Assembly (NCBI RefSeq): GCF_036172515.1
Contig: NZ_JAXKVW010000018.1
Span: 1 to 37,199 of the forward strand
Source of the DNA: Flexistipes sp.
GTDB taxonomy: Bacteria; Chrysiogenota; Deferribacteres; Deferribacterales; Flexistipitaceae
DNA length: 37,199 bases
Direction of reading: 5' to 3'
Numbering within the stretch: position 1 is the stretch's first letter; every line of letters begins with the position of its first letter. The position numbers were made by a program, and so were the translations under genes. Positions 2,055 to 24,832 of this stretch are shown here, piece after piece. The notes beneath the pieces are model-generated. The model was not told the DNA's origin, did not search any database, and saw only the letters and a program-made list of their open reading frames with translations.

Positions 2055-2106
2055 CTGTGATAAAATTGTGATAGTGTTTGACATTGTTTCCAACAGCCTC
2101 TACATT
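2055..2106 (+). promoter_or_regulatory. Promoter of the rluA-like gene, predicted leaderless
   Basis: TTGACA at 2078-2083, a 17-base spacer and TACATT at 2101-2106 form a strong sigma70-type promoter. Transcription should begin around 2112-2113, which is the ATG itself, and there is no Shine-Dalgarno sequence. Two TGTGATA motifs 11 bases apart (2056 and 2067) end five bases before the -35 and could bind a regulator. Confidence 0.65.
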
Positions 2107-2112
2107 TAACTC

Positions 2113-2838
2113 ATGAAAAAAGAGAAAGCTTATAAACTTTTATCCGCACAGGAAGGTATTTCCAACAGAGCAGCAAAAGATCTTATCGACCGCGGAGTGG
2201 TTTTTGCCGGCGGAGAACATCTAAAAATTGCCCGTACTGAATTGCCTGTAGATACAGTTCTCAAAATAAGACGTAATGAACTGGATGAGGTTGAAGTTCT
2301 CTTTGAAGATGAAAACCTTTTTGCTGTGAATAAATCCCCTTATTTAACCAGCTATGAAGTATCTCAGATATGCGATTTTCCGCTTATACACAGGCTTGAT
2401 AAAGGTACGAGCGGTGTTTTGCTTATGGCTAAGAATGAATCTTTTCGCAAGAAAGTGGTTGAGCTGTTTAGAAGCCAGGAAATTGCTAAAGAGTATATAG
2501 CCTGGGTCAGCGGTATTCTGGCTGAAGATATGTATATTGATAAAAATATAAAAACACATAAACACGGTAAAGCCAAAAGCTATACCGATCCTAAAGGCAA
2601 GCCGGCAAAAACTTTTGTCTCCCCTCTGGAAGTCAGCAATAAATGCACGAAAGTTTTGATAAAGATATATACGGGCAGAACGCACCAGATAAGGGTACAT
2701 TTGCAGGATGCCGGCTTTCCGGTTTTGGGGGATACGGAATACGGCGGCAAAAAATATCATCGCTTAATGCTTCACGCAAAAAAACTTGAAATGCCTGATT
2801 ATACGATTGAAGCACCAGAACCGCGGGATTTTAAATAG
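2113..2838 (+). CDS. RluA-family RNA pseudouridine synthase
   Basis: A 241-residue cytoplasmic enzyme that isomerises uridine to pseudouridine in rRNA or tRNA. The N-terminal part (about residues 1-55) looks like an S4 RNA-binding domain. The catalytic motif HRLDKGTSG lies at about 93-101, with the nucleophile Asp96. A second family signature, GRTHQIRVHLQ then GDTEYGG, lies near 188-211. The length is normal for a short RluA-type enzyme. The target uridine cannot be told from sequence, so no rlu letter is given. The start at 2113 is the only in-frame ATG before the S4 region and sits right at the predicted transcription start, so the mRNA is probably leaderless. It is a single gene, convergent with the sensor kinase gene downstream. 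Confidence 0.9.
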   Translation: MKKEKAYKLLSAQEGISNRAAKDLIDRGVVFAGGEHLKIARTELPVDTVLKIRRNELDEVEVLFEDENLFAVNKSPYLTSYEVSQICDFPLIHRLDKGTSGVLLMAKNESFRKKVVELFRSQEIAKEYIAWVSGILAEDMYIDKNIKTHKHGKAKSYTDPKGKPAKTFVSPLEVSNKCTKVLIKIYTGRTHQIRVHLQDAGFPVLGDTEYGGKKYHRLMLHAKKLEMPDYTIEAPEPRDFK

Positions 2839-2929
2839 TTCAAGAAAATATGCGAGAAATAATGCAAGATGGGGTGAAACATTTCTATCTCTCTACTTAT
2901 CAATCTCCCTATCTTACTCTATTTAAAGA

Positions 2930-5900
2930 TTAAGTATATTTATCCAGAAGGAACAGCAGGTCATTCAGCTGATACGGTTTTTTCAACATATCCACGAAAC
3001 CGTAATTTTCAGGATTTAACATTGCATCACTTTCCGAATATCCTGACATTACGACGGCTTTTATTTCAGAATCCATTTCCAAAGCTTTCTTTATCGCTTC
3101 CTGTGCCCCCATGCCGCCGGGAATTGTTATGTCCAGAAAGACTAAAGAGGGTTTTTCCTTCTTATCCATAAGTTCCTTATATTTTTTTAAGAGTTCAGTT
3201 CCGTCAGAGGCAATATAAACATCAAAACCGTAATGTGTCAGAATATTTTCAAGGGAATCCTGCACCATCCTATCGTCGTCCATAACCAGTATTTTTTTAT
3301 TCATACCGCTGACTGTAAAAATCTTGTCAGTGTGTTTTTCATCGGGTTTTTGAAGTGTTGCCGGAATCAGTATAGTAAATGTTGTACCTTTGCCGGGTTT
3401 TGAATCCACATGTATATAGCCGTTGTGTTTTTTAATTACGGAATGAGTTATTGCAAGACCTAACCCGCTTCCGCCCTCTTTGGTGGAAAAGTACGGGTCA
3501 AATATTTTTTCCAGTTGTTTTTTTTCTATACCTGGGCCGTTATCAGCCAATACGAGTTTCAGATATCTGCCCGGTTCGTATATTTTGTCTGTTTCGTCAA
3601 CCTCATAATTGGTTATACTGGCGGTCATTTTACCGGAATCCGGTTCTATGGCCTGTCTTGCATTAATCAGAAGGTTTTGCAGAACCTGTGAGAATTGCCC
3701 GGGATCTATAAGTGCCGTCCACAGGTTTTTATCAGTTTTTATTTCATAGGAAACTGAGGAACCTCTGAGCATGAATTCAAAACTGTTTTCAGCAAGCGGT
3801 TTTATATCCACTTTTTTGATTTCGGGACGGCCTCCTTTGGAAAATGTAAGCAGCTGTTGGGACAGATTCTTTGCATTACCAATTAACTGTTCGATATTAG
3901 AAATCTTTTCGCTGAACTTGTTCTGTTTATCAAGAAGTTTTATAAGATCGACGTTGGCACTGAGCGCGGCGAGCATATTATTAAAATCGTGAGCTATACC
4001 GCCGGCCAAAATACCCACCGATTCCAGCCTTGCCTGCTTTGCCTGCTCTTCTTCGACTTTTCTTTTAACTGTTGCATCTCTGAAAATCAGAACAGCACCG
4101 ATTATTTTGCTCTCAAAATCTCTTAATGGTGATACTGAATCTTCTATAAAAAATCTTTCTCCCAAATCCGTTTCCAACAGGGCTGAGACCTCTTTAGATA
4201 CGGTAAGGCCGTTTTCGAGTATTTCATCCACAGGGTTTTCCACTTTCTCTGATGTGTTTTCATCGTAAAAGAACAGGATATCCCTTATGTTTTTGTCGTA
4301 AATATAGGAAGATTTTTTACCGTAATAATTTTCGAAAGTTCTGTTAACCAGAGTAACTGTGCCGTTTAGGTCGGTGACCACAACAGCGTCGCCGATACTC
4401 TTTATAATTACATGAAGACGCTCCCTTTCATCGTTAAGCTTGTTTATATACCCAATACGCTCCAGTTCAAGAGAAGCTCTTTTGGAAACCAGTGAAAGTA
4501 TGTTCTGATAAATCTGCTCTTTTTCCATGGGCTTGTCATCCATAGCCGCAAGTAAACCTATCTTATTGCCGGTTTCGTCAAACATTTGAAAACCAAAGAA
4601 GGATTCAATATCCAAAGAGCGTGTCATTTCACATTCGGGAAAACTCAATCTTAAATTATGAGGGTATATACATTTTGTTTCATCTCTATCAGTGCCGCAT
4701 GGAGAATTTTTTATACTAAAAATAAAATTTTCCGTTAGTTCTCCATTTTTGCAAAATGCAACAGTTTCTGCCTCGTTTTCATTTTTGACCTTTGCAATAA
4801 ATACGTATTTACACTGCAGTATTTGGAAGATATCTTTAACGATTTCATTGAAATATTCCACTCCCTGCACCCTGGATGTTTTTGCGATGATAATATTTAT
4901 TGCATCGTTGACACGCTTTTCCGTATCAACATCATAGGCGGTACCGGCAATGGCACTGAGGTTGTTGTTCTCATCGTAAATCAGATTAGCCACATCTCTG
5001 AACCATCTATAGTCTCCGTCAACCGTTTTTAATCTGTAAGAAAGCTCTATGCTCTTTTCTTTATTTTTGGCTGCTTTTTCAATTTTTGCAGCTGCTTCAC
5101 TGTAGTCATTTGTATTCATGAAATTCTTGTGCAGGGAAGAATTCGGAGTGTGGAAAAAATCCATTTGAAAACCAAGAATTTCTGAGGCGTATTCGCTTAT
5201 ATACTCATATTTTTGTTTTCTGAAACTAAAATGGTATATTATATGTCTGGAAATTCTGAGCATTTCTCTCATTTTTCTTTCCGTTTCTCTGAATTTCTTG
5301 TCGGCAATTATTTTAAGTTCCAGCATTACTACTGCAATAAACATAAAGATAAGAATGAGTGTTACAAGCCATATAATCTTTTTGTATTCCTCATAAACGG
5401 AAAACGGCTTGTTTATTATTTTGGCATTTTCCGGCAGTTCTTCAATTTTGATATTGAATTTTTGAAGCTCCGGATAGTTAAACAGATACTCATTGGTTAT
5501 TTTCGGATAGTTGAGATAATTTTTAAACTTTTCAGGTTTTTGCAAAAGTGTTTCGAGAATTGAGGCTGCATATCTGCCTGCCAGTCTGCCGCTTGTGACA
5601 TATCCGCCGAGTACACCTTCTCTGACAAAGACATCCTCCATTGAAATTAACGGGGTTTTTCCGATGTAGGTATTAAGCTCATTAATCACCACTGAAATCG
5701 GTGTTGCTCTGGAAATACCGTGACTAACGGCACCGATTGTTGTGAGAATATAAATGTTATTCTTTTCACTGACTGTTTCCAACACACTTTTAATATCCGA
5801 AATGGAGGGTATCGTTTGTATTTTATAATTAATACCTTTGAAATCTTCAGCCATTGTCTTTTTTATCTGCTTATTAATAATTGAAGCAGTCGGAGAATTG

Positions 5901-6430
5901 TCACCTATGAAAATTAACCGTTTATTCCTGCCGAAATGTTTTATAATAAAATCAACGTTTCTGCTGATATCCATTGTCTGAAAGCATCCTGAAAATCTTT
6001 TTGGGTCGAGCTTATTCATCAGGTCAAGGTTGTTTACTCCTGAAAAAATTACAGGGGTTTCCGGGAAAAGTTTGTTTAAATCCTCCAGAAAAAAAGTCAT
6101 GGCATTATCATCGGTAATGTAGATTGCTTTGGGGGAATGCGGCGTTTTGTAATATTTAAATTTGATCATCTGTACAAACTGTTCTCTGTATTCTGCATTA
6201 AAGGGCATCTTTTTTGTGTCCAGGTTTTCTATATGATATTCAAATCCTGCAAACATATTGCTTTCTTTCAGTTTGAAGAAAAATCCGTTCAATTGCTGTT
6301 CAGTCCATTCATAATTGGTAAAATAGGAATTGATTACCAGAATATTATCGCGGGCTGCAAAAGCTGTGGAGTAACCTGCAGTAAGTGCCAAGAAAAGCAA
6401 AAGTGAAGATAAAAGTTTCTTTAATCTCAT
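2930..6430 (-). CDS. Hybrid sensor histidine kinase with periplasmic substrate-binding-like sensor
   Basis: A 1166-residue membrane sensor. Order: signal peptide (1-23); a periplasmic region of about 320 residues resembling the ABC_sub_bind (type 1 periplasmic binding) fold; a transmembrane helix near 350-372; PAS (about 395-505); GAF-like region (about 510-660); second PAS (about 665-785); a HisKA domain with the phospho-accepting His in AGGIAHDFNN near 811; a HATPase domain with NLLINARQAI, DNGPGI and GGSGLGLAI; and a C-terminal receiver with phospho-acceptor Asp near 1100 (VFLDITIPGG). It should sense a small periplasmic ligand and relay phosphate through its own receiver, to a partner not present here. 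I chose the ATG at 6430 because the signal peptide begins there. A GTG at 6466 would add 12 residues before it. TATAAT ends six bases before this ATG. Confidence 0.9.
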   Translation of the reverse strand: MRLKKLLSSLLLFLALTAGYSTAFAARDNILVINSYFTNYEWTEQQLNGFFFKLKESNMFAGFEYHIENLDTKKMPFNAEYREQFVQMIKFKYYKTPHSPKAIYITDDNAMTFFLEDLNKLFPETPVIFSGVNNLDLMNKLDPKRFSGCFQTMDISRNVDFIIKHFGRNKRLIFIGDNSPTASIINKQIKKTMAEDFKGINYKIQTIPSISDIKSVLETVSEKNNIYILTTIGAVSHGISRATPISVVINELNTYIGKTPLISMEDVFVREGVLGGYVTSGRLAGRYAASILETLLQKPEKFKNYLNYPKITNEYLFNYPELQKFNIKIEELPENAKIINKPFSVYEEYKKIIWLVTLILIFMFIAVVMLELKIIADKKFRETERKMREMLRISRHIIYHFSFRKQKYEYISEYASEILGFQMDFFHTPNSSLHKNFMNTNDYSEAAAKIEKAAKNKEKSIELSYRLKTVDGDYRWFRDVANLIYDENNNLSAIAGTAYDVDTEKRVNDAINIIIAKTSRVQGVEYFNEIVKDIFQILQCKYVFIAKVKNENEAETVAFCKNGELTENFIFSIKNSPCGTDRDETKCIYPHNLRLSFPECEMTRSLDIESFFGFQMFDETGNKIGLLAAMDDKPMEKEQIYQNILSLVSKRASLELERIGYINKLNDERERLHVIIKSIGDAVVVTDLNGTVTLVNRTFENYYGKKSSYIYDKNIRDILFFYDENTSEKVENPVDEILENGLTVSKEVSALLETDLGERFFIEDSVSPLRDFESKIIGAVLIFRDATVKRKVEEEQAKQARLESVGILAGGIAHDFNNMLAALSANVDLIKLLDKQNKFSEKISNIEQLIGNAKNLSQQLLTFSKGGRPEIKKVDIKPLAENSFEFMLRGSSVSYEIKTDKNLWTALIDPGQFSQVLQNLLINARQAIEPDSGKMTASITNYEVDETDKIYEPGRYLKLVLADNGPGIEKKQLEKIFDPYFSTKEGGSGLGLAITHSVIKKHNGYIHVDSKPGKGTTFTILIPATLQKPDEKHTDKIFTVSGMNKKILVMDDDRMVQDSLENILTHYGFDVYIASDGTELLKKYKELMDKKEKPSLVFLDITIPGGMGAQEAIKKALEMDSEIKAVVMSGYSESDAMLNPENYGFVDMLKKPYQLNDLLFLLDKYT

Positions 6431-6436
6431 AACGGT

Positions 6437-6442
6437 ATTATA
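6437..6442 (-). promoter_or_regulatory. TATAAT -10 element of the sensor kinase gene
   Basis: A perfect TATAAT on the minus strand ends six bases before the ATG at 6430, with no good -35 at 17 bases. A GAGGG lies upstream of it but about 13 bases or more from the ATG. The layout predicts a leaderless mRNA. Confidence 0.5.
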
Positions 6443-6500
6443 GCCCTCTAAAGAAGATGATAGCACAATAAATTTGGATTTGAAATATAAATTGATTTTT

Positions 6501-6556
6501 TTGCGGAGGTGGTTAGAGGTTGTTAGATGTAGTTAAAGTAATTGGAGTAGTTGAGG
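6501..6556 (+). repeat. Degenerate 9-base tandem repeat (GTAGTTRRA type)
   Basis: Units such as GTGGTTAGA, GTTGTTAGA, GTAGTTAAA and GTAGTTGAG follow one another at a period near nine. The same motif, in opposite orientation and better preserved, is at 15033-15087. Confidence 0.45.
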
Positions 6557-6629
6557 TTTACCCTTTTAAATGCCTTGGGCAATTAGTGCAGCCGATACCT
6601 AAACGGATTCGCAGAAATTGTTAATAGAT

Positions 6630-6966
6630 AGATGAAAGTTTTGAATAGTATGCTTTTATGCTTTTTCGGAAGCGGTACTTCAGTCCCGCAAGGTTGAAAA
6701 TGCCGGGTTTCAATACATCTTTGCGCGGCTGAAGCCGCGCTTTTTAACTTGTGCAAGGTTCTTACACTGTAATTCGACCGAAGCCGAGCGCATAATAATT
6801 TATGTGCTTGGTGGGCTGGAGAAATCTCTGACATTATTTGACAATGAGACCTCTAAGCTGCGCTCGAGGTGACAAAACTGTTATTTGACCAAAAGTACCC
6901 CTTCTGTGTCTACCACTATTGTAGAGGGAGAGACTGGTTCCGAGCACTGAAATTTTTAGTGCTCGG
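6630..6966. repeat. Composite of short palindromic intergenic repeats
   Basis: This fills most of the 570-base gap before 7004. It holds a degenerate end AGTTTTGAATAG (about 6637), a GCGGTAC-TTCA-GTCCCGC hairpin (6672-6689), a perfect GCGCGGC-TGAA-GCCGCGC hairpin (6723-6740), a degenerate CCGAGC...GCTTGG hairpin (about 6784-6812), a segment of the 'CTAAGCTGCGCTCGAGGTGAC' type (6850-6871), and a 9-bp stem CCGAGCACT/AGTGCTCGG (6940-6966). No protein gene is credible here. Confidence 0.6.
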
Positions 6967-7003
6967 AAAAGATTAAATTACTAAAAATCTCTAATGGTAT
7001 TAC

Positions 7004-8722
7004 TTAAAAAACGCTAAGCATTCCGGTTAAATCTGAGCCGATTTTAAGACGGCTGTTGAGTTCTTTTTGTATGGCGTCCAGACCGGCATATTCCTCTTTG
7101 AGGTTTTCAATATTTGTTTCCACTTTTGCCGTTATTCTTTTTCTGAGCTCATCTTTAAGTTTCGCAGCCTGAGAACTGACAACTTTGTTCATGGCATTCT
7201 TAAGATTTTGACCTATTGTTGAGCTCAGTTTCATATTGTAATTATCAAGCGTACCGTTAACATCCGCCTGAATTCTAAAATCAGAAATTTCAGAAAGAGC
7301 AGTTTTGAGAGCATCTGCAGCAATATCCCTGCCGGGAATCTTAGAAAAGTTTACATCGTTCAGCATTGCAGCAATATTCATGCTCAGTTTCCCTCCGGTT
7401 ACTTCAGCATTGCCACCGATATCTGCTGCTGCTTTCTCTATCTTTACAGGCAATTTTGACGATTCTAAAAGTATGATTTTGTTTACCCGGTAATTTTTGG
7501 TATTTACTTTAAAAATGTCTGTATAATTTACCGAACTGTGATCAATACTGCCTGTAAATGACACTAAGTCAGCTTTATCTAATTTTTTGCCGCTGAAATC
7601 AAAGGTAAGAGCTTTTCCCAGAATCGGCTGTGAAGAGGTAATGTTTTTTATCGTTCCACTCAAATCACCGGTCCCAAGACTGACATCCGCTTTTACAGTT
7701 TTAATCAGAAAGCGGGGCAAAGGTTCTTTTTCTCTGAAATATACCATTTCACCTTCCGCACGGGTCTTTGTGACTTCTTTTTCATTTTGTTGTTTATTAC
7801 CGCCCTCAAGGTAAGGAATAATTTTTTCATACCAATAAATAACCGTACCTAAATAATCTGCAGCTTTATCACCAAAAAGCAGACGTGTGTAATTTTCAGC
7901 TCCTGCAGGTGAAAAAGCATACTTATCCATAAGTCTGTTAACATCCTTAGCCGGAAGTGAAGTGACTGTGTTAATTTTATTTTGCAGCTCATTTTTCTGT
8001 TCTTTAAAATCATTGGCAGCTTGTCTGATTTGAGCCAAGTCACTTTGGATATCGTTTTTTAAAGAAGCGGCTTCCTTCGCTTTTCCCAGAATATCGGCTA
8101 TGCCGCCTGATGAGCTTTGAAGTTTTTCAATCCGTTCTTTATAACTTTGCAGTTTTTCTTTATCAGGCAACGATTTAAGTCTTTTCTGCCAATTGCTCTT
8201 GGCGTTTTGAATATCGTTTTTAAGCTCTTTTGCCGCCTCGAGTGTTTTCAAATCTGCTTTCGCTAAAATATCTTCTGCCTGGGGCAGTTCAAAAGAGGGC
8301 AGGGAGAGCCCGGATTTCTTATCCTTTTCAGCTGCCACTGTTTTCTTCTGTTTTTTTGAAAGAGCCCCTGAATTTTGTCGTTCAGTGTTAAACCTTAAGC
8401 CTTCCAGTGACATTTCATCTATTATAACCTTTCTCATTAATAATTTACCAAATTCGATGGACATCGCAGTTCTTTCAAACTCCACAACATTTCTCATTGG
8501 AGCGTTGGGATTTGCAATTTGGACATTGTTAAGTTTCAGTCCGAAAGGGATGAGAGAAAGGTCGGCTTCTTCCACCTCCACTTTTGCACCAACAGCTTTG
8601 CTGCCGTATTTTTCAATATTGTTTTTGATTATATTGTCAACAAAGAAAAACCAAAATATTCCTGTTAAAGCGATTATGACAGCAAATGCCAAAAGCCCCT
8701 GCCACCTGATCCATCTTTTCAT
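7004..8722 (-). CDS. TIGR03545-family AsmA-like envelope protein
   Basis: A 572-residue protein of the uncharacterised TIGR03545 family. A single N-terminal transmembrane helix (about residues 9-30) is followed by an AsmA-like opening segment in which short hydrophobic and polar strands alternate (VGAKVEVEEADLSLIPFGLKLNNVQIANP). A long coiled-coil region (about 150-260) comes next, then another region that looks like repeated AsmA/DUF748-type beta strands. The bulk should lie in the periplasm. The start codon is two bases after the stop of the TIGR03546 gene, with AGGAGT before it, so the pair is co-translated. These two families are known as neighbours in other bacteria. By analogy with AsmA-like proteins, I infer a role in the cell envelope, possibly lipid traffic, with low certainty. 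Confidence 0.8.
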   Translation of the reverse strand: MKRWIRWQGLLAFAVIIALTGIFWFFFVDNIIKNNIEKYGSKAVGAKVEVEEADLSLIPFGLKLNNVQIANPNAPMRNVVEFERTAMSIEFGKLLMRKVIIDEMSLEGLRFNTERQNSGALSKKQKKTVAAEKDKKSGLSLPSFELPQAEDILAKADLKTLEAAKELKNDIQNAKSNWQKRLKSLPDKEKLQSYKERIEKLQSSSGGIADILGKAKEAASLKNDIQSDLAQIRQAANDFKEQKNELQNKINTVTSLPAKDVNRLMDKYAFSPAGAENYTRLLFGDKAADYLGTVIYWYEKIIPYLEGGNKQQNEKEVTKTRAEGEMVYFREKEPLPRFLIKTVKADVSLGTGDLSGTIKNITSSQPILGKALTFDFSGKKLDKADLVSFTGSIDHSSVNYTDIFKVNTKNYRVNKIILLESSKLPVKIEKAAADIGGNAEVTGGKLSMNIAAMLNDVNFSKIPGRDIAADALKTALSEISDFRIQADVNGTLDNYNMKLSSTIGQNLKNAMNKVVSSQAAKLKDELRKRITAKVETNIENLKEEYAGLDAIQKELNSRLKIGSDLTGMLSVF

Positions 8723-8724
8723 AA

Positions 8725-9240
8725 TTACTCCTTCCAGCCGTGAACGGTCTGATATGCCCGGTAAATTTTACTCGCTTTGAACAGCTGCATGATTTTTGTT
8801 TTTTCCACCCAAGCCAGAAAATGTTCCCTGTATTTTTTTATGAGAGTATTGGACACTATCATCAGAGGGATAAAAAGAATAACGGAAAAAAGGAGACTGC
8901 CCATCAGAATAGTGTTGTTGAAATTTGCGAGCCGAAATATCGTGGTATTGTATAAAGTTGTCCATAATTCTTCCAGTGCCGGAGTGGTAAGCACTGCCAA
9001 ACCGATTATATGAAAGAGCGGGTCGAGTGCAAAGGAAAGAGCGGTAAAGAAAGCCCAGCCTACAATAAAGGCGGACAGGTTTACCCGTAAAATCAGAACT
9101 GCAAGTAATATTATGATGTTATGTATTGAAAAAAGCGGAGTAAGACCGAAAATCATGGCGAAGCAGAATCCAAGGCTTATTTGCAGAGGATCAGTTTCGG
9201 AGTTGAGCACCTTTAAAAATTTGGCGATGAGATGAGTCAT
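8725..9240 (-). CDS. TIGR03546-family small membrane protein
   Basis: A 171-residue membrane protein with three or four hydrophobic segments (about residues 22-50, 55-80 and 105-130) and a basic, cytosolic C-terminus. It resembles the TIGR03546 family, a relative of DUF2062 proteins, and has the typical opening MTHLIAKFLKVLNSETDPLQ. It is the first gene of a two-gene operon with the TIGR03545 protein and has a strong AAAGGAG before its ATG. The function is not known. Strict co-occurrence with the AsmA-like partner suggests they form one envelope complex. Confidence 0.8.
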   Translation of the reverse strand: MTHLIAKFLKVLNSETDPLQISLGFCFAMIFGLTPLFSIHNIIILLAVLILRVNLSAFIVGWAFFTALSFALDPLFHIIGLAVLTTPALEELWTTLYNTTIFRLANFNNTILMGSLLFSVILFIPLMIVSNTLIKKYREHFLAWVEKTKIMQLFKASKIYRAYQTVHGWKE

Positions 9241-9430
9241 TTTATCTCCTTTAACTCCCTATTTTACATTTAACGAATTACAGTTCATATTAAATTTTAT
9301 ATCTCAACTTAAGTATTGTCAAACCAAATGCATTGAGCACAGCCGTGTTTTTGAAGGGAGATAACAGTGAGTTTTCAATATTTTTTGTTTCCCTGCTTCC
9401 CTGTTTTCGAAGAAACTGTTTTAGAGTTTT

Positions 9431-9741
9431 AGAGCTTTGAACAAGCATCCCATCCTGTCCGAACACCGAGCACATAAGAATTTATATGCTCGGTGCTCGG
9501 GAGTTTCTTCCCCCTGGATTAGTGGAAGATGCATAGGAGGTACATTTTTTCAAGCAGAGCCCCGTATACCTGCAGGGCTGAAGCCCTGCTTCCTGGATTA
9601 TTCAAAGCTCTATTCTTATAAATTTTACCACCCCAGTTGAATAAATGGCTAAGCCATTTGTTTACAACATTCAAGAGGGCAAGCCCCTTAATCCCCTCCA
9701 CTAATTTAGGGGAGTATAGGTGGGGTACTTATTCAAAACTC
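9431..9741. repeat. Composite MITE-like element bounded by AGAGCTTTGAA-type ends
   Basis: The left end AGAGCTTTGAACAA (9431-9444) is an inverted copy, one mismatch, of TTATTCAAAGCTCT (9598-9611). A further right end, TTATTCAAAACTCT, is at 9728-9741. The inside holds a CACCGAGCA/TGCTCGGTG stem (9464-9495), a GCAGGGC-TGAA-GCCCTGC hairpin (9572-9589) and a segment shared with 16545-16657 that runs from TTTACCACCCC to GGTGGGGTAC. No transposase is encoded. The layout looks like two related units fused at 9598-9611. Together with the preceding degenerate bases this fills the 512-base gap between 9241 and 9753. Confidence 0.65.
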
Positions 9742-9753
9742 TCGAACAAGTAA

Positions 9754-11042: not shown

Positions 11043-11051
11043 TGTTACTAT
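11043..11051 (+). promoter_or_regulatory. Extended -10 (TGTTACTAT) of the SDR gene, predicted leaderless
   Basis: TGT-TACTAT ends seven bases before the ATG at 11059. There is no Shine-Dalgarno sequence and no clear -35, as often seen with extended -10 promoters. Transcription would start at or next to the ATG. Confidence 0.45.
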
Positions 11052-11058: not shown

Positions 11059-12489
11059 ATGAAGATACTGATTACTGGTGCCACAGGCTATATTGGCAGA
11101 AGACTGGCTTATAAAGCGCTTGATGAGGGATTTTCCGTTCGCCTTTTTGTGAGAAACACCAGGAAAGTAGATACAGAATTGCAAAAAAAGTGCGAAATTA
11201 TCCAGGGATCCACATTTGAAAAGGAAAATCTTGATAGGGCTTTAAGCGGCATTGATACGGCATATTACCTTATTCATTCCATGGGTAAAGGTTCCGATTT
11301 TGAAGCTTTGGACAAAAAGAGTGCTGAAAATTTCAGAAATGCTGCTGTTAGAAATAGCGTGGCGAAAATTGTCTATTTAGGCGGTTTGGGAGAGCAAAGT
11401 AATACCAGCAGACACTTGCGAAGCAGAAATGAAACCGGCCGTATTTTGTCGTCAGATCCCGGTAAAATTGATGTTATTTGTTTCAGAGCGGGTGTTATAA
11501 TAGGCTCCGGGAGTGCCAGTTTTGAAATAGTGCGGAACATTACTGAAAAACTCCCCCTAATGGTGGCTCCGCGATGGGTTGAAACTTTAACGGAACCGGT
11601 GGGAATTCAAGATGTGATAAAATATCTTATTTCTGCAGCTGATTCTGATTTAAAAGGCTCTCACGTTGTGGATATCGGTACCGGTAAAATGAGCTTTAAA
11701 GAAATGATGTTAAAAGCAGCCGAAGTGATGCATTTAAAAAGAATTATTATCAAAGTTCCTCTTCTCACTCCTAATCTTTCCTCATACTGGCTTATTCTTT
11801 TTACTCCAGTGAACTTTGATGTTGCAAAAGAGTTGATTGAGGGGTTGAAATTTCCTTCTGTGAAGGAAAACGACAAGGCTTCACAGCTTTTTCCTGAAAT
11901 ACAGCCTGAAAGTTATGAGAAGGCTTTTACAAAAGCTCTTGAAGAAATTTATGACAATCAGGTTATAAGCAGCTGGTGTGACAGCAGCGGAGGGAGGCAT
12001 TGTGATGTACCATTTGTGAATGAGATTTCAAAAGCGGTCTATAAAGATATGCATATTGCTGAAGTGGACAATTTCGAAGCGGAAAAAGTTTTTGGCTCGG
12101 TTAAGATGCTCGGAGGCAAAAGAGGGTGGCTTGCTTATGATATCCTGTGGCAGCTGCGGGGCCTTATGGATAAATTGATTGGCGGATACGGTTTAAACAG
12201 AGGCAGGAGAAATGAAAAAGAGCTGAGGGTAGGGGATTACATCGATTTCTGGAAAGTCGTTGATCTCGTGGAAAACAAAAGGCTTTTGTTACAGGCACAG
12301 ATGAAAGTACCCGGTAAAGCTTGGCTTGAGTTTTCTCTGATTGATAATACGCTTGTACAGACGGCTTTTTTTTACCCCAAAGGATTAATGGGTAGACTTT
12401 ATTGGTTCAGTATGCTGCCATTTCATAAATTTATTTTCGGCAAAATGCTTCACAGAGTGGTGAAAAGGGCTGAAAAACAGGTTTTATAG
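11059..12489 (+). CDS. SDR-family NAD(P)-binding protein fused to a DUF2867 domain
   Basis: A 476-residue two-domain protein. Residues 1 to about 300 are an atypical short-chain dehydrogenase/NmrA-like Rossmann fold, with ITGATGYIG at the N-terminus binding NAD(P) and a YYLIHSMGKG segment in the position expected for such proteins. The remaining 170 residues or so match the DUF2867 type (KMLGGKRGWLAYD, then LRVGDYIDFWKVV). No signal peptide is present. Substrates are unknown. Related fusions are annotated as SDR oxidoreductases or NAD-dependent epimerases. I chose the ATG at 11059 because the Rossmann strand MKILITGATG begins there. The frame stays open 30 codons further upstream, but those residues look non-coding. 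It is a single gene, convergent with the ArsA-like gene. Confidence 0.85.
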   Translation: MKILITGATGYIGRRLAYKALDEGFSVRLFVRNTRKVDTELQKKCEIIQGSTFEKENLDRALSGIDTAYYLIHSMGKGSDFEALDKKSAENFRNAAVRNSVAKIVYLGGLGEQSNTSRHLRSRNETGRILSSDPGKIDVICFRAGVIIGSGSASFEIVRNITEKLPLMVAPRWVETLTEPVGIQDVIKYLISAADSDLKGSHVVDIGTGKMSFKEMMLKAAEVMHLKRIIIKVPLLTPNLSSYWLILFTPVNFDVAKELIEGLKFPSVKENDKASQLFPEIQPESYEKAFTKALEEIYDNQVISSWCDSSGGRHCDVPFVNEISKAVYKDMHIAEVDNFEAEKVFGSVKMLGGKRGWLAYDILWQLRGLMDKLIGGYGLNRGRRNEKELRVGDYIDFWKVVDLVENKRLLLQAQMKVPGKAWLEFSLIDNTLVQTAFFYPKGLMGRLYWFSMLPFHKFIFGKMLHRVVKRAEKQVL

Positions 12490-16477: not shown

Positions 16478-16529
16478 AAAAACTCCTTTGATTAACTCTA
16501 CCTCAATGTTTTAATAAAACTAAAAGTCA

Positions 16530-16862: not shown

Positions 16863-16923
16863 CAAAAGGTGAGTATCTTCTTATGGGATTTATTACTCTT
16901 TTGACTGCGATTTGGTATTAAAG

Positions 16924-17886
16924 TTATGACCGGCACCAGTCAGGCAGGTTTATTACACCTTTTTCTGCCAGAGAAACTATCATTTCCTGCTCAATTCTGA
17001 TGTGGCCGTATTCGGTCATCATTTCGGCTATTTCTCTCAAATCATCAGAATCAAGAGATTGTGTTTCGTATTTTTTTTCGGCGTAAACAGGTGTATGTAT
17101 ATTATTTATTGCCTTTTCTATGGTATTTATATCAGGAAAGAAAGAAGTTCCTGGAATATATGACATTAAAATGTCAGCAATCTGAAGACCGGCGGGATCC
17201 ACATCACCAAAATGTATAATATTTCCGAAATCGCTGTTTTTCAGCTGTCTGCCGATTTCACCAATATTTTGAAAGCCTGCAGCGTAAATAAACATTGAAT
17301 TATTCGGATTTAGTCTGAAAAAAGGTGACAGATTTTCAAAAATTACTGTATTTTCAGCCTCTGCAGATATAATCTCCAGCTTATCGGCAAAACAGGAGAA
17401 AAAGCCGTTACTTTTCATTACATCGGTAATGTCTATATTTTCCAAATGTATGTTTTTGTCACATCTGATGTGAATAATATTGTAATAACTACCGGCACTA
17501 AGCGGTCTGAATTCATTGACAAGCGTTTTTAAAATTGAAGATTTTTGAATAGTTTTGGAATCACCAAATACTAACGCAGACAGCTGGCGCAGGTCGGTTC
17601 CTCTTAACTCATTATTTTTCAGGTAGGCATAAAGTTTGTAAGCCTTTTCCAAATTTTCCATGCTTTTGGGGTAGATATTCAGTTCGGAGAGTATGTTGTA
17701 TTTTTCGTAAATTTCCCTGCAGTGGTTGTTGAAGTAATTCCGGAGATAATTATAATCGTTTATAATAACTTTATATCGGCCTTTTTTTATCAGGATATCC
17801 GAGTTTATAAAATCATCCAGATGCTTCGAATAACTGCATTCGTTATTTTCAAGAAGTTTTGCTATCAGAAGGCATCTGTCAAGCAT
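16924..17886 (-). CDS. jetD: Wadjet nuclease subunit JetD (Toprim/TopoVI-A-like)
   Basis: A 320-residue protein, last gene of the Wadjet operon. JetD is the subunit that cleaves plasmid DNA after the SMC-like motor has extruded it. The C-terminal half carries Toprim-like features: VIFENLSPF with Glu184, and HFGDVDPAGLQIA with Asp228 and Asp230, which would bind the catalytic metal. The first 170 residues contain an arm-like region with the ATDLRQLS/RGTDLRQLS-type motif (about 95-103) typical of DUF3322/DUF2220 proteins. The true start is the ATG at 17886, one base after the jetC stop (TAAAATG) and preceded by AAGGG. The frame is open further upstream, but that reads through jetC. At 320 residues it is shorter than type I JetD proteins of about 390, which points to another Wadjet type. 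Confidence 0.87.
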   Translation of the reverse strand: MLDRCLLIAKLLENNECSYSKHLDDFINSDILIKKGRYKVIINDYNYLRNYFNNHCREIYEKYNILSELNIYPKSMENLEKAYKLYAYLKNNELRGTDLRQLSALVFGDSKTIQKSSILKTLVNEFRPLSAGSYYNIIHIRCDKNIHLENIDITDVMKSNGFFSCFADKLEIISAEAENTVIFENLSPFFRLNPNNSMFIYAAGFQNIGEIGRQLKNSDFGNIIHFGDVDPAGLQIADILMSYIPGTSFFPDINTIEKAINNIHTPVYAEKKYETQSLDSDDLREIAEMMTEYGHIRIEQEMIVSLAEKGVINLPDWCRS

Positions 17887-17887
17887 T

Positions 17888-20800
17888 TTACCCTTCAAAT
17901 CTGGTATGCGGCATAACCACTCCGTTGTCTGAGGCAATGAGATGATAGTGCATGCCTCTGTTAAAATTGGGAATATTGGGTAGTGCCACAATGAGCTGCA
18001 GTCCCCAGTTTTCTGCAATTTCAAATAACGTATTGATTGAGTCCACATCCAGTCTGTCAGCTTCATCCAGGACGATGGGCAGCATTTTATCTTTCAGGCT
18101 TTCTTCGGAAAATCTTGTTAGCATACTTAAGACAATTACAATATTGGTGCCCAGATTTTCACCGTTGGAAAGCCCTTTGTTTCTTCGGTTGCCGGAGTTA
18201 TCAAACAAATCTATTTCAATATCAAAATAGTTGCGGTAATCCAGAACATCATCCTCGTTTACCTGCGAGCGGCTGTAACCGAGACTTCTGCCCAAATCTT
18301 TTATAAAAGCATCGAAGTCCACATCTTCGGACTCAAGAAGACTCATTATGGAATCCGACTGGTGAATATGCTGAAGTTTGTGATAAGCAGGCCGCTCTTC
18401 CACCCGTAATTTTATCTGTCGGATTTTGCCGAAATGCACGTTTTCCAGGTCACTGTTTAATTTGCGTAACGTTCTTTTTACCCTGAAAATATTTTCCTCA
18501 ATTCCCGACTTGAAATTTCCGATTACTGACTTTATTTCATCTTCGATTTGAAGCAGCTGTACATTCAGTTTTTCCAGATCTTCCTGCAGTTTTGTCAGCG
18601 ACTGAAAGTTCGGGAAAACTTTTACAACCGTTTCATTAAATTTATCCAAAATGTTTGGTGTTTTTGGCATGTCTTTGTCGTATTTTTGTAAAAATGATGT
18701 CATTTCCTTCTCAAATATTCCTCTGCTTTCATAAAAGGAAGCGTCACTTATATCAAACGTTTTGGGTGATAACTCTTCGCCTGTAAGCTCAAGGGATACA
18801 TCTTTGTAGTGAGAAATTTTCTCTTCGTATACCTCTATATCATCTCTTAAACGGGTAATTTCGTCCACCAGCCTTTTTTGCTCTGACTGAATTTCTCTTC
18901 TTTCATCTTTTAAACGGTCTATCTCTTTACTGTAAGTGTTTTTGAGTTCGCTCATCCTGCTTTTTTCCTTTCTGAGTGTTTCGATTTCGCTGAAATCAAC
19001 TTTCCCCAGCAGAATATCCCTCGGATATTCATTCTCTAAACGCTCTTTTATTGTTATGTTTTTATTATAAATCTTCTCTGCTTTGTGAAATTCATTTTTT
19101 TCTTTATCAAGAAGAGATTCCAGTTCATTTATCTTACTTTTAAGTTCAGAATAATCTTTGTCCAGATTTTCTATATGCTTTTTGATTTCTGTCAGTTCTT
19201 TTTTTGCTTTCTCGTAATCGTCTTTATAGTCAGATCGTCCGAAGTAATATTTTAATCTCAGGATTTGCTGGAAATCGTTTTTGACTTTGTTAAAAACAAA
19301 GCTTTTTTCCTCTATGTATTCTATTTGCTTTTTTAGGTCATCCGCTTCATCGGTGAGATTTTTCAGATAGAGATAATCAAAAATGTGGTCTAACTCATAA
19401 ATATCCTTCAAAAGGGTTGAAATAGTTTGCATTCTGCGATTGTTTTTTTCGATTACAGATTTTGTATCTTTGATATTCTGCCTCAAAGCCTCGACCCTTG
19501 CTTTTCTGGATTTTTCACCTATTACCGGATATTTCGGAGCTGGCTCATACCGTTTTACAGATGGCGCTTTACTGTCATAGATAAGATATCCATCCTGAAG
19601 CTTTTCCACAGAATATTTGTCTGTATCAATATCTCCGGTAACAAAAAACAGTTTGTCAGAACCATTTGCGTAATCGTAAATATCTTTTGAATCAGACACT
19701 ACAGCGGCATATTTCATGTCTCCCAGCAGCGATTCCAGTTTTTCACTTTCATCAATGGGTATGTCATCAAACTTTTTGTATAAAAACTGGCCGTTGAAAT
19801 TTTTCAGGGCTTCCGGAAGTACAATTTTACCCTTGAGAAGTTCGTTTATTTCCTTGTCTATATTTTCAACAATATGCTCTTTTTCTTCAGTCTCCTTTTT
19901 GAGGGTGTAAAGCTCGGACTCCAGTGTTTTGCCTTCAGTATTAAGCTCCTCTTTGGATTCAAATGATATATCACTGCTGAGACGATTCTTTATGGACACC
20001 GCTTTGTTGTGGATTTTCAGTTTTTCTGTGAGGTTTTTGTATTCTTTTTTTAAGAACGGCAGACTTTCAATGTCTCTGCTGATTTGATTCCAGTGATCAA
20101 GCATTTTTTCAAAATCTGTGACAGTACCTATTCTGTCTTTTGTGTAGGATGTAACATTCTGCAGATATTTGATAAGATTGTTGTAATTTTCATAATTAAC
20201 AGAGAGGGCTTTTAACTCGCCTTCAATTTTTATTTTATCTTTCTCCGCAAAATTTTTAGATTGAAAAATATCTTCAAGATTCTGTTTTTTCACGGAAATG
20301 TTATTTTCCAGCTCACGGATTTTCTCTGTCAACTCTTTTAATATGTTTTCATTTTCTGCTGAAGTTTTAAGTAACTCGGTATACTCTTCAAAAGCGGCAT
20401 AGCTTCTTTCAAAATCTGAAATGTTCTGCAGCAGTTTTTCAAGCTGCTCTTCAGTATCCTGCAGGTGGGCATTTTTTTCATCAATATCGGCATTAATTAT
20501 TTCAAGTTTTCTGTTATGGTTTTCAATCGTATCATTATTTTTGGACAATTTCGTTTTCATGCTTTCAAGTTTGGATATGCTTTTGTTAAGCTGATCGCTG
20601 TAATATTTTACACAGTTGTCATGATATTTGTTTGCCGCATCTTCCAAGGCGTATACTTCATCCCTTATGGCTTTTATACGCTCAATTTTTCTTACCACTT
20701 CGCTGCGCTGCCTTATACTTTTTGTTAAAGACTGAATAAGTTTTTTCGGACTGGAATCGGTGGAGGAGAGGACATCCTTTATCATTTTTTTACCCTGACG

Positions 20801-21424
20801 GAGGATACCTGTGGAGATTGACCTGTAAAGTGTGGAAAATTCCGAAATCTTTGATGAAATGTTTATTGCCAACACCCCCCTGTTGTACAAATATTGGTGA
20901 TATTCGGTGACTGTCTGGAAATTTCGGAATTCAAGATTGGGGTATTTGCTTAACAGATGTTTGTTAAGCTGAGCAAGATTTTCAATGAGCCGGTTTCCTT
21001 CAAAAAAATCGTCAGGAGCTACAGTAACATTTTCCAGAGCAATCGGTTTGATATCAACTTTTGTATCAGGGTTTTTGATAAGCCTTATACCGAAAGACAG
21101 GGTTTTGCTGTTTTCTGGGGGCCTGCCGGCATAATGCTGCTGAAATTTGTTAATGTTGAAGAATATATAGCCTGCCGATCCCAGCATATAATCGCCGAGT
21201 GAGCGGTCGTCTTTCTGGGTTGTGACATTAAATTTAGTATACTGCTGATTTGCTATCAGCCCTGTTTGGATAGCATCCAACAAAGTGGTTTTGCCCACCC
21301 CGTTTTTGCCGAAAAGGGAGGTGAAAGTTTTGTCAAAATGCATAATGCATTTTGGGTACAAATTAAAGCCGACTATCACAAGAGAGTCTAAATATATGCT
21401 TTCTTTTTCGAGTTTTACTCCCAT
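17888..21424 (-). CDS. jetC: Wadjet SMC-like ATPase JetC (MksB/MukB-like)
   Basis: A 1178-residue SMC-type motor. The N-terminal head has Walker A GKNGVGKTT (residues 39-47). Long coiled-coil arms run from about 230 to 530 and from about 640 to 1000. They flank a globular hinge (about 540-635, FNGQFLYKKFDDIP to YEPAPKYPVIG). The C-terminal head has the ABC signature LSNGE (about 1085-1089) and Walker B PIVLDEADRLD (Asp1120, Glu1121). In Wadjet, JetC with JetA and JetB forms a condensin-like complex that extrudes loops on circular DNA and hands small plasmids to JetD. Its ATG overlaps the end of jetB by 10 bases. It is distinct from housekeeping SMC by its hinge type and gene context. Confidence 0.92.
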   Translation of the reverse strand: MGVKLEKESIYLDSLVIVGFNLYPKCIMHFDKTFTSLFGKNGVGKTTLLDAIQTGLIANQQYTKFNVTTQKDDRSLGDYMLGSAGYIFFNINKFQQHYAGRPPENSKTLSFGIRLIKNPDTKVDIKPIALENVTVAPDDFFEGNRLIENLAQLNKHLLSKYPNLEFRNFQTVTEYHQYLYNRGVLAINISSKISEFSTLYRSISTGILRQGKKMIKDVLSSTDSSPKKLIQSLTKSIRQRSEVVRKIERIKAIRDEVYALEDAANKYHDNCVKYYSDQLNKSISKLESMKTKLSKNNDTIENHNRKLEIINADIDEKNAHLQDTEEQLEKLLQNISDFERSYAAFEEYTELLKTSAENENILKELTEKIRELENNISVKKQNLEDIFQSKNFAEKDKIKIEGELKALSVNYENYNNLIKYLQNVTSYTKDRIGTVTDFEKMLDHWNQISRDIESLPFLKKEYKNLTEKLKIHNKAVSIKNRLSSDISFESKEELNTEGKTLESELYTLKKETEEKEHIVENIDKEINELLKGKIVLPEALKNFNGQFLYKKFDDIPIDESEKLESLLGDMKYAAVVSDSKDIYDYANGSDKLFFVTGDIDTDKYSVEKLQDGYLIYDSKAPSVKRYEPAPKYPVIGEKSRKARVEALRQNIKDTKSVIEKNNRRMQTISTLLKDIYELDHIFDYLYLKNLTDEADDLKKQIEYIEEKSFVFNKVKNDFQQILRLKYYFGRSDYKDDYEKAKKELTEIKKHIENLDKDYSELKSKINELESLLDKEKNEFHKAEKIYNKNITIKERLENEYPRDILLGKVDFSEIETLRKEKSRMSELKNTYSKEIDRLKDERREIQSEQKRLVDEITRLRDDIEVYEEKISHYKDVSLELTGEELSPKTFDISDASFYESRGIFEKEMTSFLQKYDKDMPKTPNILDKFNETVVKVFPNFQSLTKLQEDLEKLNVQLLQIEDEIKSVIGNFKSGIEENIFRVKRTLRKLNSDLENVHFGKIRQIKLRVEERPAYHKLQHIHQSDSIMSLLESEDVDFDAFIKDLGRSLGYSRSQVNEDDVLDYRNYFDIEIDLFDNSGNRRNKGLSNGENLGTNIVIVLSMLTRFSEESLKDKMLPIVLDEADRLDVDSINTLFEIAENWGLQLIVALPNIPNFNRGMHYHLIASDNGVVMPHTRFEG

Positions 21425-22104
21425 TCGCCGTCCGCTCCTTCATCGTTATCGAATTCCGTATCCTTAATGAATATATTTAAAATTTCTTCTATATCCATTT
21501 CCTCTTCAGATTGTTTATCATAAAGCTCCAAAGCAAGGTCGAAAAATCTTTTGATGCTGCCTTTGATTTCTATGGAGGAATAATTAATATTTCCGGGTGT
21601 GCCGGAGACTATATCCAGAAAGTTGTATTTATTTAACTGCCTGAGGGTTTTAGCGTAATTTTCATTTACTGTTTCAAGACGTTTATCCGATTCATAAAAA
21701 TTCTGCATTCTTTTTACAAAAATTTCATAGAGATTCTCAAGGGGGAAGATGGAATTCAACTCTTCAAACAGTTCGTCAGCATTAAATGTCGGGTTCTCGG
21801 TATTCTGAAAAAATTTAAGGGCCAGATACATCCCCAGAAACGTTTCGGATTTACTGAAATACTCAAATGATGTGTACCGGTCTTTTCTGGGAACGGACAG
21901 ATAAAAATTGCTGTCATAATTCTGCAGTTTATATCCGAGAAAATCATAATATTCCGTCAGTATGTTTATGTTTTCTTCGATGAAATTATATTCAGCCGGC
22001 ATGTTGCCTGCATGAACATTTATGCCGTCCTGCAATAAATAATTTACTTTTTTAAAAAGGGGGTTATGGTCTCTGATAAGCTTAATTATACTTGTTTCCG
22101 GCAT
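21415..22104 (-). CDS. jetB: Wadjet subunit JetB (MksE/DUF4194-like KITE protein)
   Basis: A 229-residue acidic cytoplasmic protein between jetA and jetC. Size and position match JetB (MksE-like), a winged-helix KITE subunit that binds the kleisin JetA and the SMC neck. Sequence features are weak: alternating helices and strands and a very acidic tail (DTEFDNDEGADGEWE). The assignment rests mainly on operon order and length. The start at 22104 overlaps jetA by 23 bases, and its end overlaps jetC, so the subunits are translationally coupled as expected for a stoichiometric complex. Confidence 0.82.
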   Translation of the reverse strand: MPETSIIKLIRDHNPLFKKVNYLLQDGINVHAGNMPAEYNFIEENINILTEYYDFLGYKLQNYDSNFYLSVPRKDRYTSFEYFSKSETFLGMYLALKFFQNTENPTFNADELFEELNSIFPLENLYEIFVKRMQNFYESDKRLETVNENYAKTLRQLNKYNFLDIVSGTPGNINYSSIEIKGSIKRFFDLALELYDKQSEEEMDIEEILNIFIKDTEFDNDEGADGEWE

Positions 22105-23365
22105 GTTTTACCTTTTGTTTGCTTAATGATATTTCTGATAAATAACAGTTTTCATATTTGAATTCAGAGTTTTTAACAAAGACATTACATATTTCAGACA
22201 GCTCGTAGAGTATTTTATTATAGTATTTGGGCAGATTTTCCTTTACCAAATCAAACTGCATTATTGCCTGAATGTAGTCTATATGATTTTTTTCTTCAAG
22301 CTCTTTCATTATATACTCTATAATCTTTTTCAATTCTTCCTTTTCAAGTGTATCAACTTCTTCCCGGAGTATTTTGTTTTCCGTATCGATAAATACGGGT
22401 TTTCGCTCCTGGGTTTTCCAGTTGTATTTGAAATCAGCAACTTTCAGGCGTTTGGGTTTTCTCAGATAAACCGGGGTGGCTGCGAACTCATTTAATAGTT
22501 TTTTCTGAAACTCCAGTATCTTATCCAATGCACTTATACTTATTTGGGAAGTTAAAAGACTGACGTGTCTGTTTATAAATTCTGTAACATCTGTCAGTGT
22601 ATTTTCCAGTTCATTCTTTATGCTGAAGAGTTTTCTCGAAGCTTTATGAATATTGTCTGTTACTTCGCTGCTGTTTTCGAAACGTTTTTCGATGGTATTC
22701 ATCATGTATAATATCTGGTTATATGATGAATATTTTGAAAGGGATGTTGATATTTCCTTTAAGCGTTCCCTTATTTTTTCAAGACCTTGCAGGAAATAGC
22801 TGAAAGACTCTTCGCTCCCGCTTCTTATGGCTGATTTTATTTCCCATTTACTGTCCACAATATCTTCTTTCAGCTGCTTTATCTTAATATCAAGTTTTAA
22901 AATAAGATCGAAAAACGTGTGTCTGAAAAAGGAGTCAATGTCGTTTTCGTCTGCATTTTCAAGACTTTTAATGGAGAGAAGTATAGTATTTAAATTACTT
23001 TCAACGTCAGAAGTCGTTTCGGTATCTCTGTTAAAAAGCCCCCTTAATACGCTGGAGCTGATTTCGGAAATATAATATGCATTCTTTTCTGTGGAGGAAT
23101 ACAATAAAAAACCTTTCTTGATGAGGTTTTCCATTACCGTATCAGTCCGCCAAGGCAGCTCGCAATCAAAATTGCTGAGATAGCTGAAACTCCGCTGTAT
23201 TGCTATATCGACAACATCTTTGTCAATAAAATCGTTTTCGTCCGCTTCCTCTTTATGCAGATACAAAAGGTACAAAGTCAAAATTTCGGCATGGGTAAGA
23301 GTGATACCGTCAGGAAATTTTGTAAGCAGATATTTTATTTTTGCCAGGATTTCATTTTCTTGCAT
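22082..23365 (-). CDS. jetA: Wadjet subunit JetA (MksF-like kleisin)
   Basis: A 427-residue, mostly helical protein, first gene of the operon. Position and size match JetA/MksF, the kleisin that bridges the two JetC heads. The N-terminal 90 residues look like winged-helix segments (TLTHAEILTLYLLYL, WRTDTVMENLIKKGFLLYSS). The middle is coiled coil (about 130-260) and the C-terminus has further helices. It does not obviously resemble the DUF3375 JetA of type I Wadjet, so type II or III is more likely. There is no Shine-Dalgarno sequence. A TGATAAACT extended -10 on the minus strand ends seven bases before the ATG, so the operon mRNA may be leaderless. Confidence 0.82.
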   Translation of the reverse strand: MQENEILAKIKYLLTKFPDGITLTHAEILTLYLLYLHKEEADENDFIDKDVVDIAIQRSFSYLSNFDCELPWRTDTVMENLIKKGFLLYSSTEKNAYYISEISSSVLRGLFNRDTETTSDVESNLNTILLSIKSLENADENDIDSFFRHTFFDLILKLDIKIKQLKEDIVDSKWEIKSAIRSGSEESFSYFLQGLEKIRERLKEISTSLSKYSSYNQILYMMNTIEKRFENSSEVTDNIHKASRKLFSIKNELENTLTDVTEFINRHVSLLTSQISISALDKILEFQKKLLNEFAATPVYLRKPKRLKVADFKYNWKTQERKPVFIDTENKILREEVDTLEKEELKKIIEYIMKELEEKNHIDYIQAIMQFDLVKENLPKYYNKILYELSEICNVFVKNSEFKYENCYLSEISLSKQKVKHAGNKYN

Positions 23366-23372
23366 AAGTTAT

Positions 23373-23414
23373 AGTTTATCACGTTTTAAAACATGTTTAA
23401 ATGAAATTTTCATT
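23373..23414 (-). promoter_or_regulatory. Putative Wadjet operon promoter with two palindromes
   Basis: On the minus strand the extended -10 TGATAAACT ends seven bases before the jetA ATG. Just upstream lie the palindrome AAACATGTTT (23389-23398) and the 7-1-7 inverted repeat AATGAAA-T-TTTCATT (23400-23414), positioned where a repressor would cover the promoter. The -35 is weak. Confidence 0.4.
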
Positions 23415-23490
23415 AAAGCCTTTTCATTTTTCTGAAAGATATGTCAATAGTTTGACGATTTTGGTGAAATAACTGAGGATAGGTGAAACA

Positions 23491-24819
23491 TTATTTCCTT
23501 AGAAATAAATCTATGAGCTGCTTTTTGTTTGTTATATTAAATTTCTCATAAATTCTGCTGAGATAGGTTTTGACTGTTGATTCAGAAATCTGAAGCTCGC
23601 TTGAGATATTCTTTATTGTATTTTTGTCCAAAGTATAAAGTAAAACCTGGTACTCCTTTTCAGACAGTCTGTAATAAGCACGGTTTAAAATGCGACGATC
23701 GATATGCTGTGATCCGACAGTCGCTGCATTTTTAATAACTTCAGATTCTGTTTTTGTTGAAGAGAGCCTTTGTTCGCCCGGAATGGGCTTGGAAAAAAAT
23801 AAAATAAAAAGGGTAATAATCATTACAATATTCCCTGCAACAATCCCTATACTAAGTAAAATCTCCTCGCTTAGTGTCATTGTTATCAACTGGCCTAAAA
23901 AAATACCCAGACACATACTGAAAAGTAAAAATGCAGCTTGTGTATACTGTTTGATTTTCATAATAATAAAAAGAATGATGAATATCTCGATAAAACCAAA
24001 AGAAACGTGCAGAGTGAAATTGCTGAGAAAATGAAGCAAAGGCTGCTTTTCATGAATAAAGCTAAATGCAAGTATGCCTGATGCTATAGCTCCCAGGACA
24101 GGTGCTTCTTTTTTGTATTTAAACAACCAGGCTCCTGCAAAAATACCGATTAAGTAGTACAAATGCTCAGGGATACTTAGAAATGCTTTTTGTATGAGAT
24201 TTTGGATTATATAAGAGTATAACATGCCGCCGGTTACATAAAATAACGTTAACAGGAAGTAATAGGAGTCAAGTTTTATTTTTGGGCAATTTTCTGAATC
24301 TGAAGGTTTAAAACAGAGCATTCCTGCTGCAAAAATTAATAGAATAAATACGATTTTAGTCTGATAATTGATGGGAATAATTTCTGTTATAAAACACAGT
24401 AAGAAAGCTAAAGTAAAGGCTCCTAAAGCATTAAAAAACACTTGTCCTGTGTATTTGAGATATAGAATTGCAAATAGAATTAAGGGAGCAGATGATATAC
24501 CTGCCGCAACTAAAAATATATGCAATGCAAATGCATTGTTTACTGGGAAGAGTAATAATGTAAAAAAAACTGTCAGGATTAGGAAAAGTATTTTTAATTT
24601 CTTGATAAGATTCCAGCGTTTGAATGTTCCGATAATCAGTAATCCAATACCCTGACCAGATATAAAAGATAAAGAGGGGTTATTTATTGAAATGTAGCTG
24701 CTCAGATATCCGTTTAAAGGTATAAGCCACATCCAGGTCAAAAAGGCTGCAAAAGGGAAGCTGTATTTTAAAAAACCAATATTATTAAAAAGCCATTTGG
24801 CCGGTATCTGTAGTTTCAT
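23491..24819 (-). CDS. Membrane LuxR-type transcriptional regulator with 12 helices
   Basis: A 442-residue protein with about 12 hydrophobic segments (residues 10 to about 365), like an MFS-fold sensor, followed by a cytoplasmic linker and a C-terminal LuxR/FixJ helix-turn-helix (about 380-442: LSEKEYQVLLYTLD, then ISSELQISESTVKTYLSRIYEKF). Such membrane-tethered LuxR proteins are best known from Eggerthella-type Actinobacteria and usually control an adjacent gene in response to an unknown ligand. The divergent lipoprotein gene is the natural candidate target. The Wadjet operon begins 125 bases downstream on the same strand. I chose the ATG at 24819 because a TATATT -10 ends seven bases before it. 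A TTG at 24867 would add 16 residues. Confidence 0.85.
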   Translation of the reverse strand: MKLQIPAKWLFNNIGFLKYSFPFAAFLTWMWLIPLNGYLSSYISINNPSLSFISGQGIGLLIIGTFKRWNLIKKLKILFLILTVFFTLLLFPVNNAFALHIFLVAAGISSAPLILFAILYLKYTGQVFFNALGAFTLAFLLCFITEIIPINYQTKIVFILLIFAAGMLCFKPSDSENCPKIKLDSYYFLLTLFYVTGGMLYSYIIQNLIQKAFLSIPEHLYYLIGIFAGAWLFKYKKEAPVLGAIASGILAFSFIHEKQPLLHFLSNFTLHVSFGFIEIFIILFIIMKIKQYTQAAFLLFSMCLGIFLGQLITMTLSEEILLSIGIVAGNIVMIITLFILFFSKPIPGEQRLSSTKTESEVIKNAATVGSQHIDRRILNRAYYRLSEKEYQVLLYTLDKNTIKNISSELQISESTVKTYLSRIYEKFNITNKKQLIDLFLRK

Positions 24820-24826
24820 ACCGTTA

Positions 24827-24832
24827 AATATA
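24827..24832 (-). promoter_or_regulatory. TATATT -10 of the membrane LuxR gene
   Basis: On the minus strand TATATT is followed by seven bases and the ATG at 24819. The nearest purine-rich sequence (AAGGG) is about 18 bases from the start, too far to act as a Shine-Dalgarno site. A leaderless mRNA is predicted. The intergenic region to the lipoprotein gene also holds an imperfect palindrome, GCCGG...CTGGC (about 24875-24895), that could be an operator. Confidence 0.4.

Follow-up and report, generated by a model that had tools for sequence, protein, structure and literature searches.

Five genes in the window, by which we mean the whole stretch of 37,199 nt of Flexistipes sp. DNA analysed here, are preceded by a hexamer resembling a bacterial -10 promoter element that ends 6-7 nt before the ATG. 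This raises the question of whether transcription of these genes starts at the start codon itself. We consider it probable (about 0.85) that the hexamers belong to housekeeping-sigma promoters which start transcription at the ATG and yield leaderless mRNAs, and that such genes make up about 2-3% of the genome and occur in several families of Deferribacterales.

Predicted promoters abutting start codons

Promoter scores differ widely among the five genes. The highest combined score (10.8, at a distance d of 6 nt between hexamer and ATG) is found at an RluA-family pseudouridine synthase gene, predicted to be leaderless (2113-2838, forward strand; Pfam PF00849, with the rluA subfamily of NCBIfam below cut-off). 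Its -10 element TACATT (2101-2106, forward) ends 6 nt before the ATG at 2113, and a perfect -35 element TTGACA (2078-2083, forward) can be read directly 17 bp before the -10. This -35 element falls inside the span of the sequence-only reading, which starts at 2078, but is absent from its wording. The first gene (jetA position; 22082-23365, reverse strand) of a Wadjet-like jetABCD operon, likewise predicted leaderless, has the extended -10 TGATAAACT (23373-23381, reverse) 7 nt from the ATG at 23365 and scores 8.3. A hybrid sensor histidine kinase gene (2930-6430, reverse; PAS, HATPase_c and receiver domains in Pfam), also a predicted leaderless gene, has the -10 element TATAAT (6437-6442, reverse) 6 nt from the ATG at 6430, with a score of 7.7. 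By promoter score these three are strong.

The remaining two are weaker in sequence. A predicted leaderless gene for an SDR/NAD(P)-binding protein with a DUF2867 domain (11059-12489, forward; PF13460 and PF11066) follows an extended -10 of the form TGnTAnnnT, TGTTACTAT (11043-11051, forward), 7 nt from the ATG at 11059. Its score of 5.2 is weak, and chance matches are common at such scores, but its conservation is strong. The weakest of the five is the -10-like TATATT (24827-24832, reverse; score 4.2), 7 nt from the ATG at 24819 of a gene for a membrane protein with a C-terminal LuxR-type (GerE) domain (23491-24819, reverse; PF00196); here the case consists only of the spacing and the absent Shine-Dalgarno (SD) site, and conservation does not rescue it. 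At thresholds as low as the scores of these last two genes, genome-wide counts at offsets of 5-8 nt barely exceed those at other offsets.

When the window was re-read, all five hexamers were found where the sequence-only reading had placed them. Its description of the SD sites holds as well. In all five genes an SD match of at least 4 nt is absent from the relevant range, apart from an irrelevant GTGA upstream of the jetA-position gene, whereas each of the 21 other curated starts of the window shows one, 4-9 nt long, and lacks a promoter-like site at 5-8 nt. The share of predicted leaderless genes in the window (5/26) is above the genome-wide rate. Predicted anti-SD duplex energies in the genome are far stronger than those for shuffled sequences, and most genes here clearly rely on pairing with the anti-SD.

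In a promoter, the transcription start lies about 7 nt beyond the end of the -10 box. If each hexamer serves the housekeeping sigma factor in this role, transcription would accordingly start on the A of the ATG at d = 6 and one base before it at d = 7, and an mRNA that starts at the ATG has neither a 5' leader nor an SD. As described for leaderless mRNAs elsewhere (PMC10783764, PMC5397173), the 5'-terminal AUG would be bound by the 70S ribosome or by the 30S-IF2-fMet-tRNA complex and be taken up without SD pairing, in a mode operating beside ordinary SD-led initiation. What we observe is the position, the statistics, the conservation and the lack of an SD; we infer the RNA 5' ends, the sigma dependence and the translation of the leaderless form.

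It is conceivable, but improbable, that the promoters are real and translation nevertheless starts elsewhere, or follows a leader of a few nucleotides recognised through S1 or an A/U-rich stretch, or that an unseen promoter further upstream produces a long leader devoid of an SD. Spacings of 5-8 nt allow leaders of 0-2 nt, and Bacteroidota, among other groups, are known to initiate on leadered mRNAs that have no SD. On the other hand, the 80 codons downstream of the ATG contain no in-frame start preceded by a good SD in any of the five genes. In the rluA-like and jetA-position genes an in-frame stop (TAA in both) 6 nt upstream of the ATG means that the start cannot lie further upstream, and the start of the SDR gene is fixed by the N-terminus MKxLxTGxTG, which is invariant among its orthologues. 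The N-terminus of the kinase, read from the ATG on, resembles a signal peptide.

Additional features of the locus

The jetABCD operon extends over 16924-23365 (reverse strand). Its jetB, jetC and jetD match PADLOC models; no such model fits the protein in the jetA position, which has conserved counterparts in a few Deferribacterales. A selenocysteine peroxiredoxin is encoded at 31342-32049 (forward; NCBIfam peroxi_PrxU, E 3e-120 with the TGA read through). The in-frame TGA (31588-31590) occupies the peroxidatic position (FTFV-U-PTE), and a stable hairpin (z -3.0) follows immediately 3', where a bacterial SECIS would be expected. The gene is broken up by ORF tools. A lone match to a CRISPR direct repeat (33256-33285; Rfam CRISPR-DR2) scores exactly at the gathering threshold, and no array was reported. 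A 169-nt piece of an ATPase gene is present twice (35393-35561 and 36910-37078, 97% identical), as is a 109-nt element (33306-33414 and 37079-37187, 78%). These duplicated pieces at the end of the window suggest recombination or the debris of a mobile element.

Genome-wide excess of promoter matches at start codons

The arrangement was counted in half (1.24 Mb) of the genome from which the window derives (G000; 2.47 Mb in 31 contigs) and in samples of 400 kb each from three further genomes (G003, G016 and G032). Genes and their starts were called by a simple custom gene caller from coding signal only; upstream signal was not used, so that the promoter test is not circular. At every offset the score combined the -10 element, the best -35 element at 16-18 bp and the TG extension, with the position weights of E. 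coli.

Among SD-less genes of the half genome, 19 have a promoter match at d = 5-8, where the remaining offsets would predict 2.7 (Poisson p = 1e-10). Dinucleotide-preserving shuffles gave 1.9 +/- 1.3 genes, with a maximum of 7 in 200 shuffles. ATGs that are not starts (n = 39,319) show a flat profile without any preferred promoter offset, and no SD-led gene of the same half-genome sample has a promoter at 5-8 nt. The hexamer pattern TAnnnT alone, lacking a -35 element or TG, is only mildly enriched (52 versus 32 expected) and is a poor discriminator in this base composition.

The mild enrichment of TAnnnT is what one would expect if -10-like hexamers happened to precede some SD-less starts in an AT-rich genome and the fitting ones had been picked. 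The low individual scores of the LuxR-type and SDR genes point the same way, the former (4.2) lying within the chance range. Such an origin is nonetheless very improbable, and for the class as a whole it is largely refuted by the sharp, offset-specific excess of complete promoters, the flat controls, the shuffles and the conservation across families. The sequence-only reading had judged the spacing too uniform to be dismissed easily and had proposed a shuffled control; the excess over that control is present and is not a by-product of AT-richness.

For an estimate of the size of the class, every plausible start was allowed, genes with a good SD were excluded and a score above 6 was required. 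There are 36 such genes at offsets 5-8 in the sampled half genome, compared with 10-11 at the adjacent offsets 1-4 and 10-13, which leaves an excess of about 25 genes of 1043, or 2-3% of genes predicted to be leaderless. With starts chosen this loosely, the background grows at long offsets, where ordinary promoters come into range. Candidates scoring above 7 are mostly spaced at d = 7 (10 genes) or 6 (9), less often at 5 (5) or 8 (3). What had been proposed as a genome-wide second initiation mode is real as a dispersed minority of about 2-3% of genes, not as a major mode, and it is not a new mechanism. That the hexamers instead serve another factor, an alternative sigma or a repressor whose operator abuts the start by coincidence, is scarcely credible, even with several regulators and kinases among the candidates, since a TTGACA at 16-18 bp and the TG of the extended -10 co-occur as they do in a housekeeping promoter.

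Conservation of the arrangement

The SDR-DUF2867 gene has orthologues of 54-63% identity in several families. Ten Deferribacterales orthologues from four families, aligned over the 60 nt before the start, have little in common there besides the -10 box and the start. TAnnnT stands at d = 6-7 in 8/10 of them, in many cases extended by a TG. A contig scan with the SDR protein alone as the query returned nothing; with an alignment as the query it returned orthologues from outside the phylum (Bacteroidota, Campylobacterota and others), which served as a negative control. Of about 77 such orthologues, 6 have TAnnnT at 6-7 nt; in some an SD takes its place. The difference is significant (Fisher p = 2e-6) in a comparison uncorrected for relatedness, whose rows are not fully independent.

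At the jetA-position gene, TGATAAAC or a motif of the TGnTA type is retained in four other genomes (G001, G002, G009 and G021); two sister genomes have TAAACA for TAAACT and have thus lost the final T. In G001, a genome of the same genus, the 70 nt upstream of the rluA-like gene are identical, and both the TATAAT of the kinase and the TATATT of the LuxR-type gene are the same. No clear orthologue beyond the genus was found for the rluA-like and LuxR-type genes, and matches of the kinase beyond the genus mostly cover its C-terminal half, so that conservation of these three can be judged only within the genus.

Of the 440 orthologue pairs whose N-termini align, 3 are called leaderless in both members, more than chance would give (p = 3e-4). 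For one response regulator gene the prediction is leaderless in two genomes (G000, G003) but SD-led in G016, which suggests that the initiation mode can switch. The leaderless arrangement is conserved in orthologues of related species, for the few genes covered. Leaderless mRNAs had been proposed for all five genes of the window. At least four of these are best explained in this way, with RNA ends that would lie at or next to the ATG; the LuxR-type gene is the weakest case.

Distribution in Deferribacterales

The same procedure detected the signal in 10/40 on the Thermus plasmid pTT27, the positive control, and gave 0/30 in a 150-kb stretch of E. coli K-12. The excess of promoters at starts was replicated in the samples of G003 and G016; the 400 kb of G032 show none. 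In 40 Deferribacterales genomes the pattern TTGACA-N16-18-TAnnnT-N5-8-ATG occurs 731 times, compared with 438 occurrences at a spacing of N12-15 and 274 of the reversed pattern. The N5-8 count exceeds the N12-15 count in 35 of the 40 genomes and is lower in 3 (Wilcoxon p = 3e-7); in the genome of the window itself the counts are 22 and 6. In G016 the pattern count is inflated by a repeat, TTGACATGTAATCATTGTTATATTATAGTATTGGTCTATG, which places a promoter beside an ATG and occurs in numerous identical copies on contig C2. In one family (f6) the pattern is barely above the controls (151 versus 121 and 126), and the leaderless mode was not detected there. The predicted leaderless arrangement is clearly common to several Deferribacterales families, and undetected in f6 and in the sample of G032.

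Sensor kinases among the candidates

An HATPase_c domain is encoded by 5/27 predicted leaderless candidates of the G000 sample, compared with 19/1016 other genes (p = 2e-4), and the bias persists among genes with an upstream gap above 30 bp (p = 5e-4). In G003 and G016, histidine kinases account for 3/20 predicted leaderless and 15/718 other genes (p = 0.01), a weak replication, and a response regulator is likewise among the predicted leaderless genes. The comparison is post hoc and based on small sets, and two of the five candidate kinases look like close paralogues of equal length with near-identical -10 regions. We therefore regard the kinase enrichment as a lead, not a result. It is a speculative and rather unlikely extension that the leaderless minority in Deferribacterota has been functionally selected in favour of sensor kinases and response regulators; a change in the state of initiation (IF2/IF3 balance, free 70S) would then shift signalling proteins relative to SD-led genes. 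If the bias is real, it would link initiation mode to signalling.

Comparison with known leaderless systems

An open-access literature search covering Deferribacter, Denitrovibrio, Flexistipes and Calditerrivibrio yielded no report of leaderless genes in Deferribacterota, although GeneMarkS-2 tables may already include some of the species. The phenomenon itself is known and ordinary; apparently it is predicted here for a phylum without prior description.

Zheng et al. 2011 (PMC3160421) found TA-led leaderless genes in 207 of 953 bacterial genomes; in Firmicutes genomes with such genes their share averages 4.2%. The paper does not mention Deferribacteres by name, but its row "Other Bacteria" (8/20 genomes) may include some. 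The Flexistipes genes resemble the TA-led genes in having TAnnnT about 12 bp before the start (counted from the first T of the box), in lacking an SD and in being a minority; they differ in that the strongest sites carry full -35 elements. With Deinococcus-Thermus (PMC12340547), in which a -35 element added at a suitable position raised expression, they share a -10 box that precedes the ORF by a few bp and, by prediction, leaderless expression. There, by contrast, about 30% of ORFs are affected, compared with about 2-3% here, and the host here is low in GC. The high-leaderless type of Deinococcus-Thermus and Actinobacteria, with about 20% or more of the genes, is thus not what an excess of about 25 of 1043 represents. 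The leaderless-transcription class of GeneMarkS-2, cited in PMC9581028 as 21.6% of bacterial species, mixes SD-led and leaderless genes in one genome, as is predicted here; the class of Deferribacterota was not found in the literature searched.

Genes predicted to be leaderless may have their starts misplaced by automatic start calling. Deferribacterota, Gram-negative, AT-rich and dominated by SD-led initiation, would apparently join the phyla with predicted leaderless genes.
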